64,000 bases of DNA, taken from NCBI GenBank assembly GCA_021794275.1, contig JAJYRD010000071.1, positions 1 through 64,000 of the forward strand, given 5' to 3'. Below the pieces are notes generated by a model. The model made no database searches and was not told the origin of the DNA. It was given only the letters and a program-made list of their open reading frames with translations. The DNA comes from Pseudomonadota bacterium (GTDB lineage: Bacteria; Pseudomonadota; Gammaproteobacteria; Acidiferrobacterales; Acidiferrobacteraceae). Below, in pieces: positions 43,633 to 51,859 of the stretch. The translations under genes were made by a program, and so were the position numbers. Position 1 is the stretch's first letter. Each line of letters starts with the position of its first letter.

Positions 43633-43829
43633 GCGGAGCCGTCTGGGATGCGGGCCGGAACCGGCGGCCCGCACACCCGTTTCTCTCATCTCGCATCGGC
43701 CCGGGGGGTGCCATGGAGCCTTATACCGACGGTGCCGTCACTCGGAAGAGCTGTGGCATAATGGGCGGTATTCCCCCCATCGCTGGGGAGTCGTACCCAT
43801 TCGCCGAGGAGTTGGCAGGATCCCCATCA

Positions 43830-44600
43830 ATGGAAGCCGCGCAGAACGCCATCAAGATCACGATCCGCAATTTGCATTTCTATTACGGGAAGGAAGCGGC
43901 CCTCCACGACATCAATCTCTCCGTCGCTACCAAGATGGTGACCGCATTCATAGGGCCCTCCGGTTGTGGGAAGTCGACTTTGCTGCGCACCTTCAACCGC
44001 ATGTACGAGCTCTATCCAGATCAGAGGGCGACCGGCGAAATCCTGTTGGATGACCGGAACGTCTTGCTGCCAGGAGAAGACCTCTATCGTTTGCGCTCCC
44101 GTATCGGGATGGTTTTTCAGAAGCCGACCCCGTTCCCCATGTCGATCTACGAGAACGTGGCGTTCGGCATTCGACTCTACGAGCGTCTTCCCAAGGCTGA
44201 ACTTGACGACCGTGTCGAGGAGGCCCTGCGCCAAGTGGCCTTGTGGGACGAGGTCAACGCCAAGCTCGGTCAGAGCGGTACGAGTCTTTCTGGAGGGCAG
44301 CAGCAGCGACTGTGTATGGCCCGCGCGGTGGCCTTGAAGCCGGAGGTCCTGCTCTTGGACGAGCCGGCGTCGGCGCTTGATCCGATCTCGACCCTCAAGA
44401 TCGAGGAGCTTATCTACGAGCTGAAACAGGACTACACGATCGTTATCGTGACCCATAATATGCAGCAAGCGGCGCGCGTTTCCGACTATACTGCCTTCAT
44501 GTACCTGGGTCGGGTCGTCGAGTTCAGCGACACGAACACCATATTCACGAACCCGGCGTCGAAGCAGACGGAAGACTACATTACCGGGCGATACGGTTGA
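43830..44600 (+). CDS. pstB: Phosphate ABC transporter ATP-binding protein PstB
   Basis: PstB powers PstSCAB phosphate import. From [10 protein letters not shown] at 43830 the protein is 256 residues (E. coli 257). [19 protein letters not shown] is PstB-like. Walker A is GPSGCGKST, the signature is LSGGQQQRL and Walker B is [11 protein letters not shown] longer start at 43713 would add 39 residues of no family likeness. phoU follows after 19 nt. pstS, pstC and pstA are not in this window, so the other transporter subunits are encoded elsewhere. Confidence 0.95.
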
Positions 44601-44619
44601 TAAGCCAGGAGTAGTGACC

Positions 44620-46382
<1,763 letters not shown>

Positions 46383-46484
46383 TTACCGCGCTTGCGGTTG
46401 GGCGGGAAGGGGGGTGGTGAGTTCGTGACGAGATCGGCGCCGCACATGGCAGACGAGCCCTGGAGGGCCCGTCTGCCCAGACTT

Positions 46485-47612
46485 CTAGCGACGGCCTTTT
46501 TTGCCTTTCTTTTTTGGTGCGGCCTTCTTCACGGGCGCCTTCTTCTTGGCAGCCGTCTTTTTCGGTGCCGCCTTCTTTTTGGACACCACCTTCTTGGGCG
46601 CGGCCTTCTTCACCGCCGCTTTCTTCTTCGGCACTACCTTCTTAGGGGTCGCCTTCTTCTTCGCAGCCGACTTTTTAGGCGCCGCCTTCTTCATCACCGC
46701 TTTCTTTGTCGCAGCTACCTTTTTCGGTGCGGCCTTCTTTGTCGCAGCCGCCTTCTTGGGCGCGGCCTTCTTTGTGCTTGATTTTTTAGGGGCAGCTGCT
46801 GCCGCAGTGGTCTTCTTCGGTGCCGCTTTTTTCTCTGTCACGGCGTTTTGCGGGGCCGACTTTCCGGTCGCCGCGGCGCTGATCGGTTGCGGCTTGACGG
46901 TCACGGGCTTGGGCTTGGCCGCAAGAGGTGGCATCGTCACCGGGCGCAAGGTCGCCAAGGGGTGGATGTGACCCTCGATGATGCTGACGACGTTCCTGAA
47001 TATCTCCTGTACATCGCCTTCGCCTACCACCCTGCGCAGCTTGTTTTGGCTCTTGTAGTAGGCGATCAACGGGGCGGTTTGCTGTTCATAGACGTCGAGG
47101 CGTTTGCGTATCGTCTCTTCGTTGTCGTCCGCCCTCTCCTGTAGTGTGCCCTCGCACTTGTCGCAGCGCCCCGGCACCTTCGGCGCCTGGAAGTAGATGT
47201 TATACATCTGGCCGCACTCCGCGCACGTCCGCCGTCCGGTCAGGCGCTTCAGGAGGATCTCGTGGTTGACGTCAACGAGAAGCCCAAGTTGCAGGGGCTG
47301 GCCCAGGCGGGCGAGGAGTGAGTCGAGGGCCTGCGCTTGAGGATTATTGCGCGGAAAGCCGTCCAGAATGAAACCATTTTTCGCATCGGGTTGGCTCAGC
47401 CTGTCTTGGATCATCCCGAGCACGATCTCGTCGCTTACCAGTTGTCCGTTGTCCATCGCCGCCTTGGCCCGCTTGCCAAGCTCGGTGCCTGCGGCGACCG
47501 CCGCTCGGAGAAGGTCGCCTGTGGAGATTTGGGGAATCTTGTACTTTTCGACCAACAGTTTCGACTGCGTCCCTTTCCCGGAGCCGGGCGCTCCCAATAG
47601 CACGATTCGCAT
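46485..47612 (-). CDS. adk: Adenylate kinase with C-terminal histone H1-like Lys/Ala/Pro tail
   Basis: Residues 1-216 are a complete adenylate kinase: P-loop GAPGSGKGT at 7-15, NMP-binding STGDLLR, DGFPRN, and a zinc LID with Cys 130, 133, 150 and 153 (CAEC, CDKC). A typical Adk stops near 215-220. This ORF runs to 375. The extra part is a Pro/Thr linker (about 217-258) and then KKAAPKK-type repeats, with about 40 percent Lys in the last 115 residues and no acidic residue after about 261, ending KKGKKGRR. It looks like the histone-H1-like C-terminus of AlgP/Hc1-type proteins. The frame is continuous and there is no stop between the two parts. An internal start (Met 227 or Met 307) could also produce the tail alone. 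Its role is unknown; binding to nucleic acid or polyphosphate is a guess. Confidence 0.93.
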   Translation of the reverse strand: MRIVLLGAPGSGKGTQSKLLVEKYKIPQISTGDLLRAAVAAGTELGKRAKAAMDNGQLVSDEIVLGMIQDRLSQPDAKNGFILDGFPRNNPQAQALDSLLARLGQPLQLGLLVDVNHEILLKRLTGRRTCAECGQMYNIYFQAPKVPGRCDKCEGTLQERADDNEETIRKRLDVYEQQTAPLIAYYKSQNKLRRVVGEGDVQEIFRNVVSIIEGHIHPLATLRPVTMPPLAAKPKPVTVKPQPISAAATGKSAPQNAVTEKKAAPKKTTAAAAAPKKSSTKKAAPKKAAATKKAAPKKVAATKKAVMKKAAPKKSAAKKKATPKKVVPKKKAAVKKAAPKKVVSKKKAAPKKTAAKKKAPVKKAAPKKKGKKGRR

Positions 47613-47851: not shown

Positions 47852-48208
47852 ATGCCAGGCATACCAGACTTCAACGACACGGAGCTGTGGGTGGCCCGGT
47901 CGGCGGTTGCGGAGCGCTACGGCAAGGCCGTGCCCCTGGAGCTTGCCGATAGCGAGCTGCGGCTCGATCCCGACTCGACGGCCTTGACCACCTGCCCCAC
48001 CCTCTTCTGGACCGAGCGCGGAGCGAGCTTCGTGGTCTTCAAGGTTGGCGAGGACCGCTACCGATGCCAGTTCTTCTATGGTCCCAACGAGCACTACGGG
48101 ACGGGTCGCGATGTGTATGGCGACATCGGCGAGTGTGTAACTCACCTCTTACAGCTGCAAGCCGACCACGAAGCCCGCCGTGACCCCTCTGCCCACCCGA
48201 ATACCTGA
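47852..48208 (+). CDS. hypothetical protein, 118 residues
   Basis: I do not recognise the family by name. The product MPGIPDFNDTELWVARSAVA is acidic and looks like a compact soluble protein, with a plausible mixed alpha/beta pattern (LFWTERGASFVVFKVGEDRYRCQFFYG) and a helical C-terminus. GGAGAGG lies upstream of the ATG. The minus strand has a competing ORF (47795..48145), but the plus strand has codon use more like its neighbours and a ribosome site. It is divergent from adk and 56 nt before pfp. Confidence 0.6.
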   Translation: MPGIPDFNDTELWVARSAVAERYGKAVPLELADSELRLDPDSTALTTCPTLFWTERGASFVVFKVGEDRYRCQFFYGPNEHYGTGRDVYGDIGECVTHLLQLQADHEARRDPSAHPNT

Positions 48209-48264: not shown

Positions 48265-49530
48265 ATGGCAAAGCCCAAGAACGCGTTCTATGCCCAATCC
48301 GGCGGCGTGACGGCCGTCATCAACGCGTCGGCGTGCGGGGTTATAGAGGCCGCCCGTCGGTATAAGACGAAGATCGGCAAGGTCTATGCCGGGCGCAACG
48401 GCATCATCGGCGCCCTCACCGAGGACCTGATCGATACGAGCAAGGAGTCCGTCGAGGCCATCCGGGCCCTGCGCCACACGCCGGCCGGGGCGTTCGGGTC
48501 ATGCCGCTACAAGCTCAAAGGGTTGGAGGAGAACAAGGCCCAGTACGAGCGTCTCATCGAGGTTTTCCGCGCCCACGACATCGGCTACTTCTTCTATAAC
48601 GGCGGCGGCGATTCCCAAGATACCGCGTACAAGGTCTCGCAGATTGGCGAACGCCTGGGCTACCCGGTCGTGTGCGTCGGGATACCGAAGACTGTGGACA
48701 ACGATCTGCCCTTCACGGATTGTTCCCCGGGGTTTGGCTCGGTCGCGAAATACGTAGCAGTGGCGATCCGCGAGGCCGGTTTCGATGTCGCGAGCATGGC
48801 CAAGACATCGACCAAGATCTTCGTCATGGAGGTCATGGGGCGCCATGCGGGATGGATAGCCGCGGCGGGCGGATTGGCCGCCGAGAAGGCAGGCGACGCG
48901 CCCCACATCATCCTGTTTCCGGAACGCGTCTTCGACGAGCCGGCGTTCCTTGCACGCGTCGACCAGGCCGTCAAGGCTTATGGCTACTGCGCCATCGTGG
49001 TGTCCGAGGGCGTTAAGGGCAAAGACGGGAAATTCCTCGCCGAGAGCGGCCTCAAGGATGCCTTCGGTCACGCCCAATTGGGTGGCGTGGCCCCTGTCGT
49101 CGCCCAGCTGATAAAGAACAAGCTCGGGTATAAATACCATTGGGCGGTCGCCGATTATCTGCAGCGCGCCGCTCGCCACATTGCCTCCAAGACCGACGTC
49201 GAGCAGGCGTATGCGCTTGGCAAGCGGGCCGTGGAGTTGGCCCTGAAGGGGCATAACGCCGTCATGCCGATCATCGTTCGCAAGTCCAGTCGTCCCTATA
49301 AATGGGAGCTTGGCGTCGCGAATCTCGCGGACGTGGCGAACGTCGAGAAGAAGATGCCGGAGGACTACATCACCGACGATGGCTTTGGCATCACCAGGAA
49401 ATGTCGGACCTATCTCGAGCCGTTGATCCAGGGAGAAGACTATCCCCCCTACAAGAACGGTCTGCCTCAGTACGTGCGCCTGAAGAATGCACCGGTCAAG
49501 AAGAAGTTGGCGGGCGAGTTCAAGGTTTAA
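48265..49530 (+). CDS. pfp: PPi-dependent 6-phosphofructokinase
   Basis: The enzyme interconverts fructose-6-phosphate and fructose-1,6-bisphosphate with pyrophosphate. The 421-residue protein has GGGDSQDTA at 113-121, where Asp 116 replaces the Gly of ATP-PFK, and PKTVDND at 141-147, the PPi-type active-site Lys. VMEVMGRHAGWIAAAGG is also typical. In methanotrophs and chemoautotrophs this class can work in gluconeogenic direction and on sedoheptulose-7-P. A GAGGAG lies 13 nt upstream. orf71 and hppA follow, so PPi is both consumed and used for proton pumping from this locus. Confidence 0.95.
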   Translation: MAKPKNAFYAQSGGVTAVINASACGVIEAARRYKTKIGKVYAGRNGIIGALTEDLIDTSKESVEAIRALRHTPAGAFGSCRYKLKGLEENKAQYERLIEVFRAHDIGYFFYNGGGDSQDTAYKVSQIGERLGYPVVCVGIPKTVDNDLPFTDCSPGFGSVAKYVAVAIREAGFDVASMAKTSTKIFVMEVMGRHAGWIAAAGGLAAEKAGDAPHIILFPERVFDEPAFLARVDQAVKAYGYCAIVVSEGVKGKDGKFLAESGLKDAFGHAQLGGVAPVVAQLIKNKLGYKYHWAVADYLQRAARHIASKTDVEQAYALGKRAVELALKGHNAVMPIIVRKSSRPYKWELGVANLADVANVEKKMPEDYITDDGFGITRKCRTYLEPLIQGEDYPPYKNGLPQYVRLKNAPVKKKLAGEFKV

Positions 49531-49810: not shown

Positions 49811-51859
49811 ATGTCTGTCGATCTTGCGGTCGTGTTCGTTTGTGCCCTTCTGGCACTGTTATACGGCGGTGTTTCCATTATGTGGGTTATGAAGCAACCC
49901 ACTGGCACGGCGCGCATGATGGAGATCGCGCAAGCCGTGCAGGAGGGCGCCCAGGCCTATTTGAACCGTCAATACCGCACTGTTGGTGTAGTCGGCGTTT
50001 CGCTTTTCGTTCTAATCTTCGTCTTCCTTCATTCCCTTACGGCCATCGGCTTCGCGATCGGCGCGATCTTATCGGGGCTTGCGGGCTACGTCGGCATGAA
50101 TGTCTCGGTCCGCTCGAACGTTCGCACGGCCGCCGCGGCCTCGGGCGGCATCAACCCCGCCTTGCGCGTCGCTTTTCGCGGCGGCTCGATTACGGGCCTT
50201 TTGGTGGTGGGCCTGGGCCTCTTGGGCGTGGCAGGCTACTTCGCTGTCCTGCTCGCGCTCACGCCGTCTTCGGGTCATATCGACGTCTCGCCGCTCGTGG
50301 GGCTTGCCTTCGGGGGCTCGCTGATTTCGATCTTCGCCCGCTTAGGCGGTGGAATATTCACCAAGGGGGCGGACGTAGGCGCGGACCTCGTGGGCAAGGT
50401 GGAGGCCGGAATTCCGGAAGACGATCCGCGCAACCCCGCCGTCATAGCTGACAACGTGGGAGACAACGTCGGGGATTGCGCCGGCATGGCCGCCGATCTT
50501 TTCGAGACCTATGCGGTTACAGTGGTCGCCACGCTATTGCTGGGCCATCTGGATTTTCCAGGCTTCCATGGGGCTCTTATCTACCCGCTCGCTTTGGGTG
50601 CCGCGTCCATCATAGCCTCGATCGTTGGGACATGGTTCGTGCGGGCACGCGAGGGAGGCAAGATCATGAACGCCCTCTACCGTGGTTTGCTCGTCACGGG
50701 CGTGATTGCCGCGGTCACTTTTTATCCGGTCACGGTGTGGCTCATGCACGCGGTCCCCGCCTATTCCGCGGGTGGCGCGCCCTTGTCGGTCCACGATATC
50801 TATTATTCGGCATTGACCGGGTTGCTCGTCACGGGCCTGCTCGTCGTCATCACCGAATACTACACGGCCACCGAGTACAAGCCGGTCCGCTCGATCGCGC
50901 AGGCATCGACGACGGGCCACGGCACGAACGTCATAGCCGGGCTCGCGGTGTCCATGAAGTCCACGGCGGCACCTGTGCTCGTGATCTGCGGTGGCATAGG
51001 TCTTGCCTACCACTTCGCCGGTCTCTACGGCATAGCGGTCGCTGCGACCGCCATGCTCTCGCTTGCGGGCATGATCATAGCGCTTGACGCTTACGGCCCT
51101 ATCACCGACAACGCTGGTGGTATTGCTGAAATGGCCAACCTTCCGCCCGCCGTGCGCGCGGTGACCGACCCCCTTGATGCCGTGGGGAACACCACCAAGG
51201 CCGTGACCAAGGGCTACGCCATCGGATCCGCCGGGCTTGCGGCGCTCGTGCTCTTTTCCGACTTTACGCATGAACTTACGGCGCGCACCGGTCGGGTCTT
51301 GGCCTTCGACCTCTCGAATCATATGGTGATCATCGGCCTGTTCCTGGGCGGGCTCGTGCCCTACCTGTTTGGTGCCATGGCCATGGAGGCGGTGGGCCGG
51401 GCAGCGGGCTCTGTCGTAGTCGAAGTGCGCCGCCAGTTCAAGGAGATTCCGGGCATAATGGACGGCAGCGCCCGGCCCGATTACTCGCGCGCGGTCGATA
51501 TGCTCACAAAGGCCGCGATTCGGGAAATGATCATCCCCTCGCTTCTGCCGGTCTTGGTGCCGGTCGCAGTCGGCACTCTGCTCGGCGCGCAGGCCTTAGG
51601 GGGCGTGCTGATGGGCAGTATCGTCACGGGGCTGTTCGTGGCGATCTCCATGACGACCGGCGGAGGTGCCTGGGATAACGCCAAAAAGTACATAGAGGAT
51701 AACCACTTCGGTGGCAAGGGATCGGACGCCCACAAGGCCGCCGTTACCGGAGATACTGTTGGCGACCCATATAAAGACACGGCGGGGCCTGCGGTCAACC
51801 CCATGATCAAGATCATCAATATCGTGGCGCTCTTGCTGGTTCCCTTGCTCCGCTTCTAA
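49811..51859 (+). CDS. hppA: K+-independent proton-pumping inorganic pyrophosphatase
   Basis: HppA couples PPi hydrolysis to proton export. The 682-residue, about 16-helix protein has the PPi-site motifs [27 protein letters not shown] and the C-terminal [32 protein letters not shown] has Lys where K+-dependent enzymes have Ala, so it should be K+-independent and H+-pumping. GGGGAG lies 8 nt upstream. It follows pfp and orf71. A strong stem-loop lies just after the stop. Confidence 0.96.

Follow-up and report, generated by a model that had tools for sequence, protein, structure and literature searches.

Adenylate kinase (Adk) is an essential enzyme that balances cellular energy. The Adk encoded in the window, by which we mean the whole 64,000-nucleotide stretch of DNA analyzed here, carries a long C-terminal tail rich in lysine, alanine and proline that resembles histone H1. 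Sequence comparison suggests that this tail probably anchors Adk to polyanions, DNA or RNA for instance. Our main reading, to which we give a probability of roughly 0.5, is that the disordered polycationic tail keeps the housekeeping Adk tethered to nucleic acid, DNA being a somewhat likelier partner than RNA. There are good grounds for an anchoring role, since the fusion is ancient, has been selected to stay basic, and is similar to H1 and AlgP in composition.

The adk gene (47612..46485, minus strand) is a single frame of 375 amino acids running from ATG to TAG with zero internal stops, so that kinase and tail share one uninterrupted frame, as the first-pass annotation of this DNA had stated. 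Residues 1-213 (46974..47612, minus strand) form an adenylate kinase core of the zinc-LID type, assigned by Pfam and NCBIfam profiles, PDB alignment, invariant residues and AlphaFold2. In a family search of the 375-aa protein this core matched Pfam ADK (E 6e-57) and ADK_lid (E 3e-14); it also matched NCBIfam NF001380/PRK00279 over positions 1-213 of 216 (299.1 bits against a cut-off of 251) and TIGR01351 (256.5 bits against a cut-off of 168). Alignment of residues 1-214 with Adks of known structure (214-226 aa) runs from one end to the other. The P-loop (G7-T15), the arginines at positions 36, 88, 123, 160 and 171, and the four LID zinc cysteines (C130, C133, C150 and C153) are invariant across 19 tailed relatives, and the AlphaFold2 pLDDT of the core is about 80-90. 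The active site of the tailed Adk looks intact by these comparisons, bearing out the earlier recognition of a full Adk with P-loop and zinc LID. Since this is the single Adk detectable in its genome, it is the housekeeping enzyme. A 13-bp hairpin (46448..46477, minus strand) starts 7 nt after the stop codon of adk, inside the first 40 nt, and folds at -29 kcal/mol (z -5.2); it is not a classical terminator because a T-run is absent, and it possibly marks the transcript end. No Rfam matches were found within the window.

The tail spans residues 214-375 (162 aa; 31% Lys, 25% Ala, 12% Pro), with a pI of 12 and a net charge of +53. It begins with a linker rich in Pro, Ala and Thr (residues 214-261; 46830..46973, minus strand), seen in the translation and mostly below 50 in pLDDT, and continues as an H1-like Lys/Ala/Pro tail (residues 262-375; 46488..46829, minus strand), supported by composition, family conservation and codon use. 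Units of the KKAAPKK type recur along it, a KK pair comes about every 5 residues, and the protein ends in GRR. Lysine makes up 41% of the final 115 residues, where roughly 40% had been estimated. AlphaFold2 gives the tail a pLDDT of about 40-50 with no secondary structure, predicting a disordered tail on a well-folded core, and a Pfam search of the tail returned zero family matches. This C-terminus is H1/AlgP-like in being K/A/P-rich, strongly basic and predicted to be disordered. Two plus-strand open reading frames over the tail (46501..46971 and the end of 45786..46781) were rejected as reverse-strand shadows of the repeat.

Searching the same genome with the tail sequence at E<=10 gave only one other match, a free 87-aa Lys/Ala-rich H1-like open reading frame (G000:C33 66566-66829; L002:1537-1800, plus strand) that lies beyond the end of the window, roughly 19 kb away from adk. 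A gene for a DksA/TraR-type zinc-finger protein (L002:458-856, minus strand) lies near it. The free protein is possibly a source or a relative of the Adk tail.

The extension recurs far more broadly than the first-pass annotation had claimed. In the window's own family, each of the 17 genomes in which an Adk occurs encodes it in an open frame of 321-419 aa, a one-contig genome (G001) and a four-contig genome (G013) included; in two relatives the tail sequence is partly N. Because all these genomes have the tail, the one-contig assembly among them, an assembly or frameshift artefact is ruled out. Our gammaproteobacterial survey covered 276 genomes, from which 100 loci were fetched; about 60 of these loci encode Lys-rich Adk tails of 89-317 aa, and the first scan favours tailed matches since its queries were tail-derived peptides. 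The remaining fetched Adks end at 213-226 aa, two with short basic ends excepted. Overall we count about 83 tailed Adks in about 35-38 group-coded gammaproteobacterial families, the window's own included, and Chromatiaceae and Thiotrichaceae MAGs are among the named tailed records.

On a tree of 131 Adk cores, built with the tail left out, tail presence needs 9 changes, as compared to 37.8 for shuffled labels. The tailed gammaproteobacterial Adks thus form what is essentially a single old clade, in which the tail was lost in places, plus a few cases apart from it. Within this clade, the untailed L184 and L192 retain short basic Arg/Lys-rich ends, and Gammaproteobacteria outside it are mostly untailed. 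Bradyrhizobium, Afipia and relatives have an Adk of the short-LID type that also carries a Lys-rich tail, in proteins mostly of 266-339 aa; in a survey of their order, Rhizobiales, most members were without long Adk frames. A separate Lys-rich tail occurs on the Adk of a Bacteroidota MAG (L077:3989-5128, plus strand).

In the mechanism that we propose, Adk would be permanently joined to a disordered polycationic H1-like tail acting as an electrostatic tether, which would hold the enzyme on nucleic acid, at the nucleoid or, as a close alternative, on RNA and the ribosome. The tethered Adk would turn AMP from ATP-consuming machines back to ADP on the spot, and the neighbouring pyrophosphate (PPi)-dependent phosphofructokinase and H+-pyrophosphatase would consume the PPi. 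We infer nucleic-acid binding, localisation and metabolic benefit from the fusion together with its conservation, charge, disorder and neighbourhood. Against a tether stands the fact that an untailed enzyme suffices for the majority of Rhizobiales and of Gammaproteobacteria outside the clade.

Since a polycation binds each of DNA, RNA, polyphosphate and acidic membranes, composition does not name the partner. Other proteins of tailed-Adk genomes carry similar stretches: DksA-like proteins extended at the N-terminus by a long K/A/P-rich H1-like segment (L208, L212 and L222), an AlgP/PhaF-like phasin (L211), a DUF2934-like protein (L221) and an RND-type transporter (L224, genome G132) whose Lys/Ala-rich H1-like stretch lies close to the C-terminus, all named by eye, as well as small free H1-like proteins (L002 and L223). 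In seven untailed genomes no convincing H1-like stretches were found. DksA acts on RNA polymerase. To judge from these sequences, the occurrence of such basic stretches on DksA, on phasin-like proteins and on free H1-like ones favours nucleic acid as the partner, and this company leans to the nucleoid.

The genes around adk lean the other way, to translation. Downstream of adk lies hemB (45348..46373, minus strand), a neighbour in many tailed genomes, and further on pstB and phoU-like phosphate-uptake genes (43713..45351, plus strand), which are nearby across the family; these names come from sequence recognition. On the other side, a 118-aa protein without any Pfam or NCBIfam match (47852..48208, plus strand) is encoded between adk and pfp; its gene is found beside adk in other tailed loci and is conserved in many genomes of part of the tailed clade. 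The pfp gene (48265..49530, plus strand) encodes a PPi-dependent phosphofructokinase (NCBIfam PRK14072, 660 bits against a cut-off of 273; Pfam PFK), and hppA (49811..51859, plus strand) an H+-translocating pyrophosphatase (Pfam H_PPase, E 2e-269). In tailed loci pfp is always divergent from adk. It was present in the fetched adk region of 46 of 58 tailed versus 7 of 39 untailed loci, and hppA in 39 of 58 versus 3 of 39, a skew that may reflect shared ancestry since only two independent supported pairs underlie the association. Genome-wide, 23/24 tailed and 6/14 untailed genomes have a PFK-family gene. Loss of soluble pyrophosphatase was considered as a correlate of the tail and was not seen: PF00719 occurs in 35 of 38 genomes, tailed and untailed, often near adk. 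With adk and PPi enzymes side by side, the locus gathers enzymes for both products of the reaction ATP -> AMP + PPi.

This pairing of AMP recycling with pfp, hppA and often soluble ppa suggests that RNA (ribosome, tRNA or mRNA), and not DNA, might be what the tail binds, which would bring Adk to the sites of AMP and PPi release by aminoacyl-tRNA synthetases. The tailed adk of Bradyrhizobium, which sits between secY and rpsM in a ribosomal-protein operon, and that of the Bacteroidota MAG, flanked by genes for a phosphoribosyltransferase and an Obg-family GTPase, would fit as well. However, gene neighbourhood is a weak guide to localisation, and alphaproteobacterial adk lies in the ribosomal-protein operon whether tailed or untailed. 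In addition, tail relatives are described as DNA binders, the C-terminus of AlgP, of similar composition to the Adk tail, being one that binds DNA (PMC9239181). We consider binding to RNA to the exclusion of DNA rather unlikely.

The first-pass annotation had offered the nucleoid, the ribosome or a polyphosphate granule as possible anchoring sites. Its general idea of an anchor stands, in that the fusion is ancient, basic and H1/AlgP-like, but the polyphosphate granule does not hold as a general site. The full version of that idea is that the tail binds polyphosphate (polyP) and keeps Adk on polyP granules, where ATP would come from polyphosphate kinase (PPK) running backwards and Adk would transfer phosphate to AMP. 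Cooperation between PPK and Adk has been reported in E. coli, the window's own genome has PPK1, and pstB and phoU-like genes lie near adk. AlgP, with its similar tail, sits on polyP granules (PMC9239181), and Lys-rich stretches bind polyP in bacteria (PMC12345225, PMC12077175). Yet PPK1 and PPK2 are both absent from 4 of 24 tailed genomes (G088 and G132, each a single contig, G124 and G217), with PPK1 present in 13 of 14 untailed genomes. Because complete tailed genomes lack both kinases, polyP is not the general anchor. Moreover, the published Pseudomonas polyP matches have four consecutive lysines, and the longest lysine run in the window tail is three. PolyP binding may occur in the window species, whose own genome has PPK1; as an account of the tail we hold it to be unlikely.

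The tail could also be a tolerated low-complexity expansion, or a feature of solubility, stability or charge without a specific partner. Its length (89-317 aa) and sequence drift freely, repeats expand and contract, and some relatives have lost it; what stays is basicity, with a median net charge of +58. Codon use in 77 tails speaks against mere tolerance. Of 10,966 tail codons, 4,640 encode Lys (1,484 AAA and 3,156 AAG) and 120 (1.1%) encode Glu. AAR to GAR is a single transition, the same as AAA to AAG. Lysine is thus protected in the tails, with Lys-to-Glu changes strongly depleted and synonymous AAA/AAG changes free. The seven KKAAPKK units of the window tail have six different DNA spellings, so the repeat is not a recent one at the DNA level. 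For the tail, pairwise dN/dS comes to about 0.07-0.34, versus 0.02-0.15 for the core; the tail values err on the low side, since residues of low-complexity sequence align with one another. Since the tail has in addition been kept over dozens of families and gained separately elsewhere, a partnerless expansion seems to us quite improbable. In five tailed Adks (L175, L187, L150, L171 and L193) the later part of the tail is charged and coiled-coil-like, or resembles the Lys repeat translated in a shifted frame, possibly through repeat slippage.

Release of the tail as a free H1-like protein, by proteolysis or from the two internal Met codons to which the first-pass annotation had drawn attention, is highly improbable: Met227 and Met307 do exist, and the genome does encode a free H1-like protein, but the two codons are missing in several close relatives, have no convincing ribosome-binding site, and would yield a kind of protein that is already encoded separately.

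Returning to the nucleic-acid tether, its broader form is that in much of the Gammaproteobacteria Adk would be held on the chromosome or RNA by an H1-like tail, making adenylate balancing local beside PPi recycling, and that Bradyrhizobium and a Bacteroidota lineage arrived at this separately. We put this forward tentatively, at somewhat less than even odds. Textbooks treat Adk as a soluble enzyme that is assumed to diffuse and so keep AMP, ADP and ATP in equilibrium. A tail that was kept very long in dozens of families and regained elsewhere implies that the place of Adk in the cell matters, and subcellular adenylate gradients in bacteria thereby become a testable question. Occurring on Adk, DksA, phasins and small free proteins, H1-like tails may be a movable localisation module in these bacteria.

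Our literature search, with most subscription journals outside its scope, found no Lys-rich or H1-like extension and no nucleoid localisation of a bacterial Adk. Linkage of pfp with hppA (and ppa) has been described in chemoautotrophs and methanotrophs; the window likewise has pfp and hppA, here adjoining a tailed adk, and a divergent H1-tailed adk is not mentioned in the part of that description available to us (PMC4287430). As a zinc-LID Adk (NF001380/PRK00279, TIGR01351), the window protein is a full-length, catalytically intact-looking member in its residues 1-213; solved enzymes of this type stop at about 214-226 aa, and the window protein adds its 162 basic residues beyond. The closest database model of comparable length is NF010381 (PRK13808), an Adk model of 335 positions that shares the Adk core and whose length suggests a comparable extension. 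The window protein matches it with 204 bits, far below the cut-off of 426 and only over model positions 1-127 of 335; the LID type differs, the tail sequence is unrelated, and the model states no tail function. NF010381 is probably the long tailed alphaproteobacterial Adk, and databases have therefore met long Adks without comment on the tail.

The tail itself also has known counterparts. The histone H1-like model NF038053 (hist_H1_lk_Burk) matches residues 248-370 with an E of 5e-7 and 30.1 bits, below its 80-bit cut-off and driven by composition, and the Adk tail differs in being fused to an enzyme. AlgP and PhaF of Pseudomonas, like the tailed Adk, combine a folded domain with a K/A/P tail that is long and disordered; their partner domain is helical or phasin-type rather than an enzyme, and their units are KPAA as compared to KKAAPKK. 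The enzyme and the tail type are thus both known, and what is new is their combination, its spread and its separate gains.
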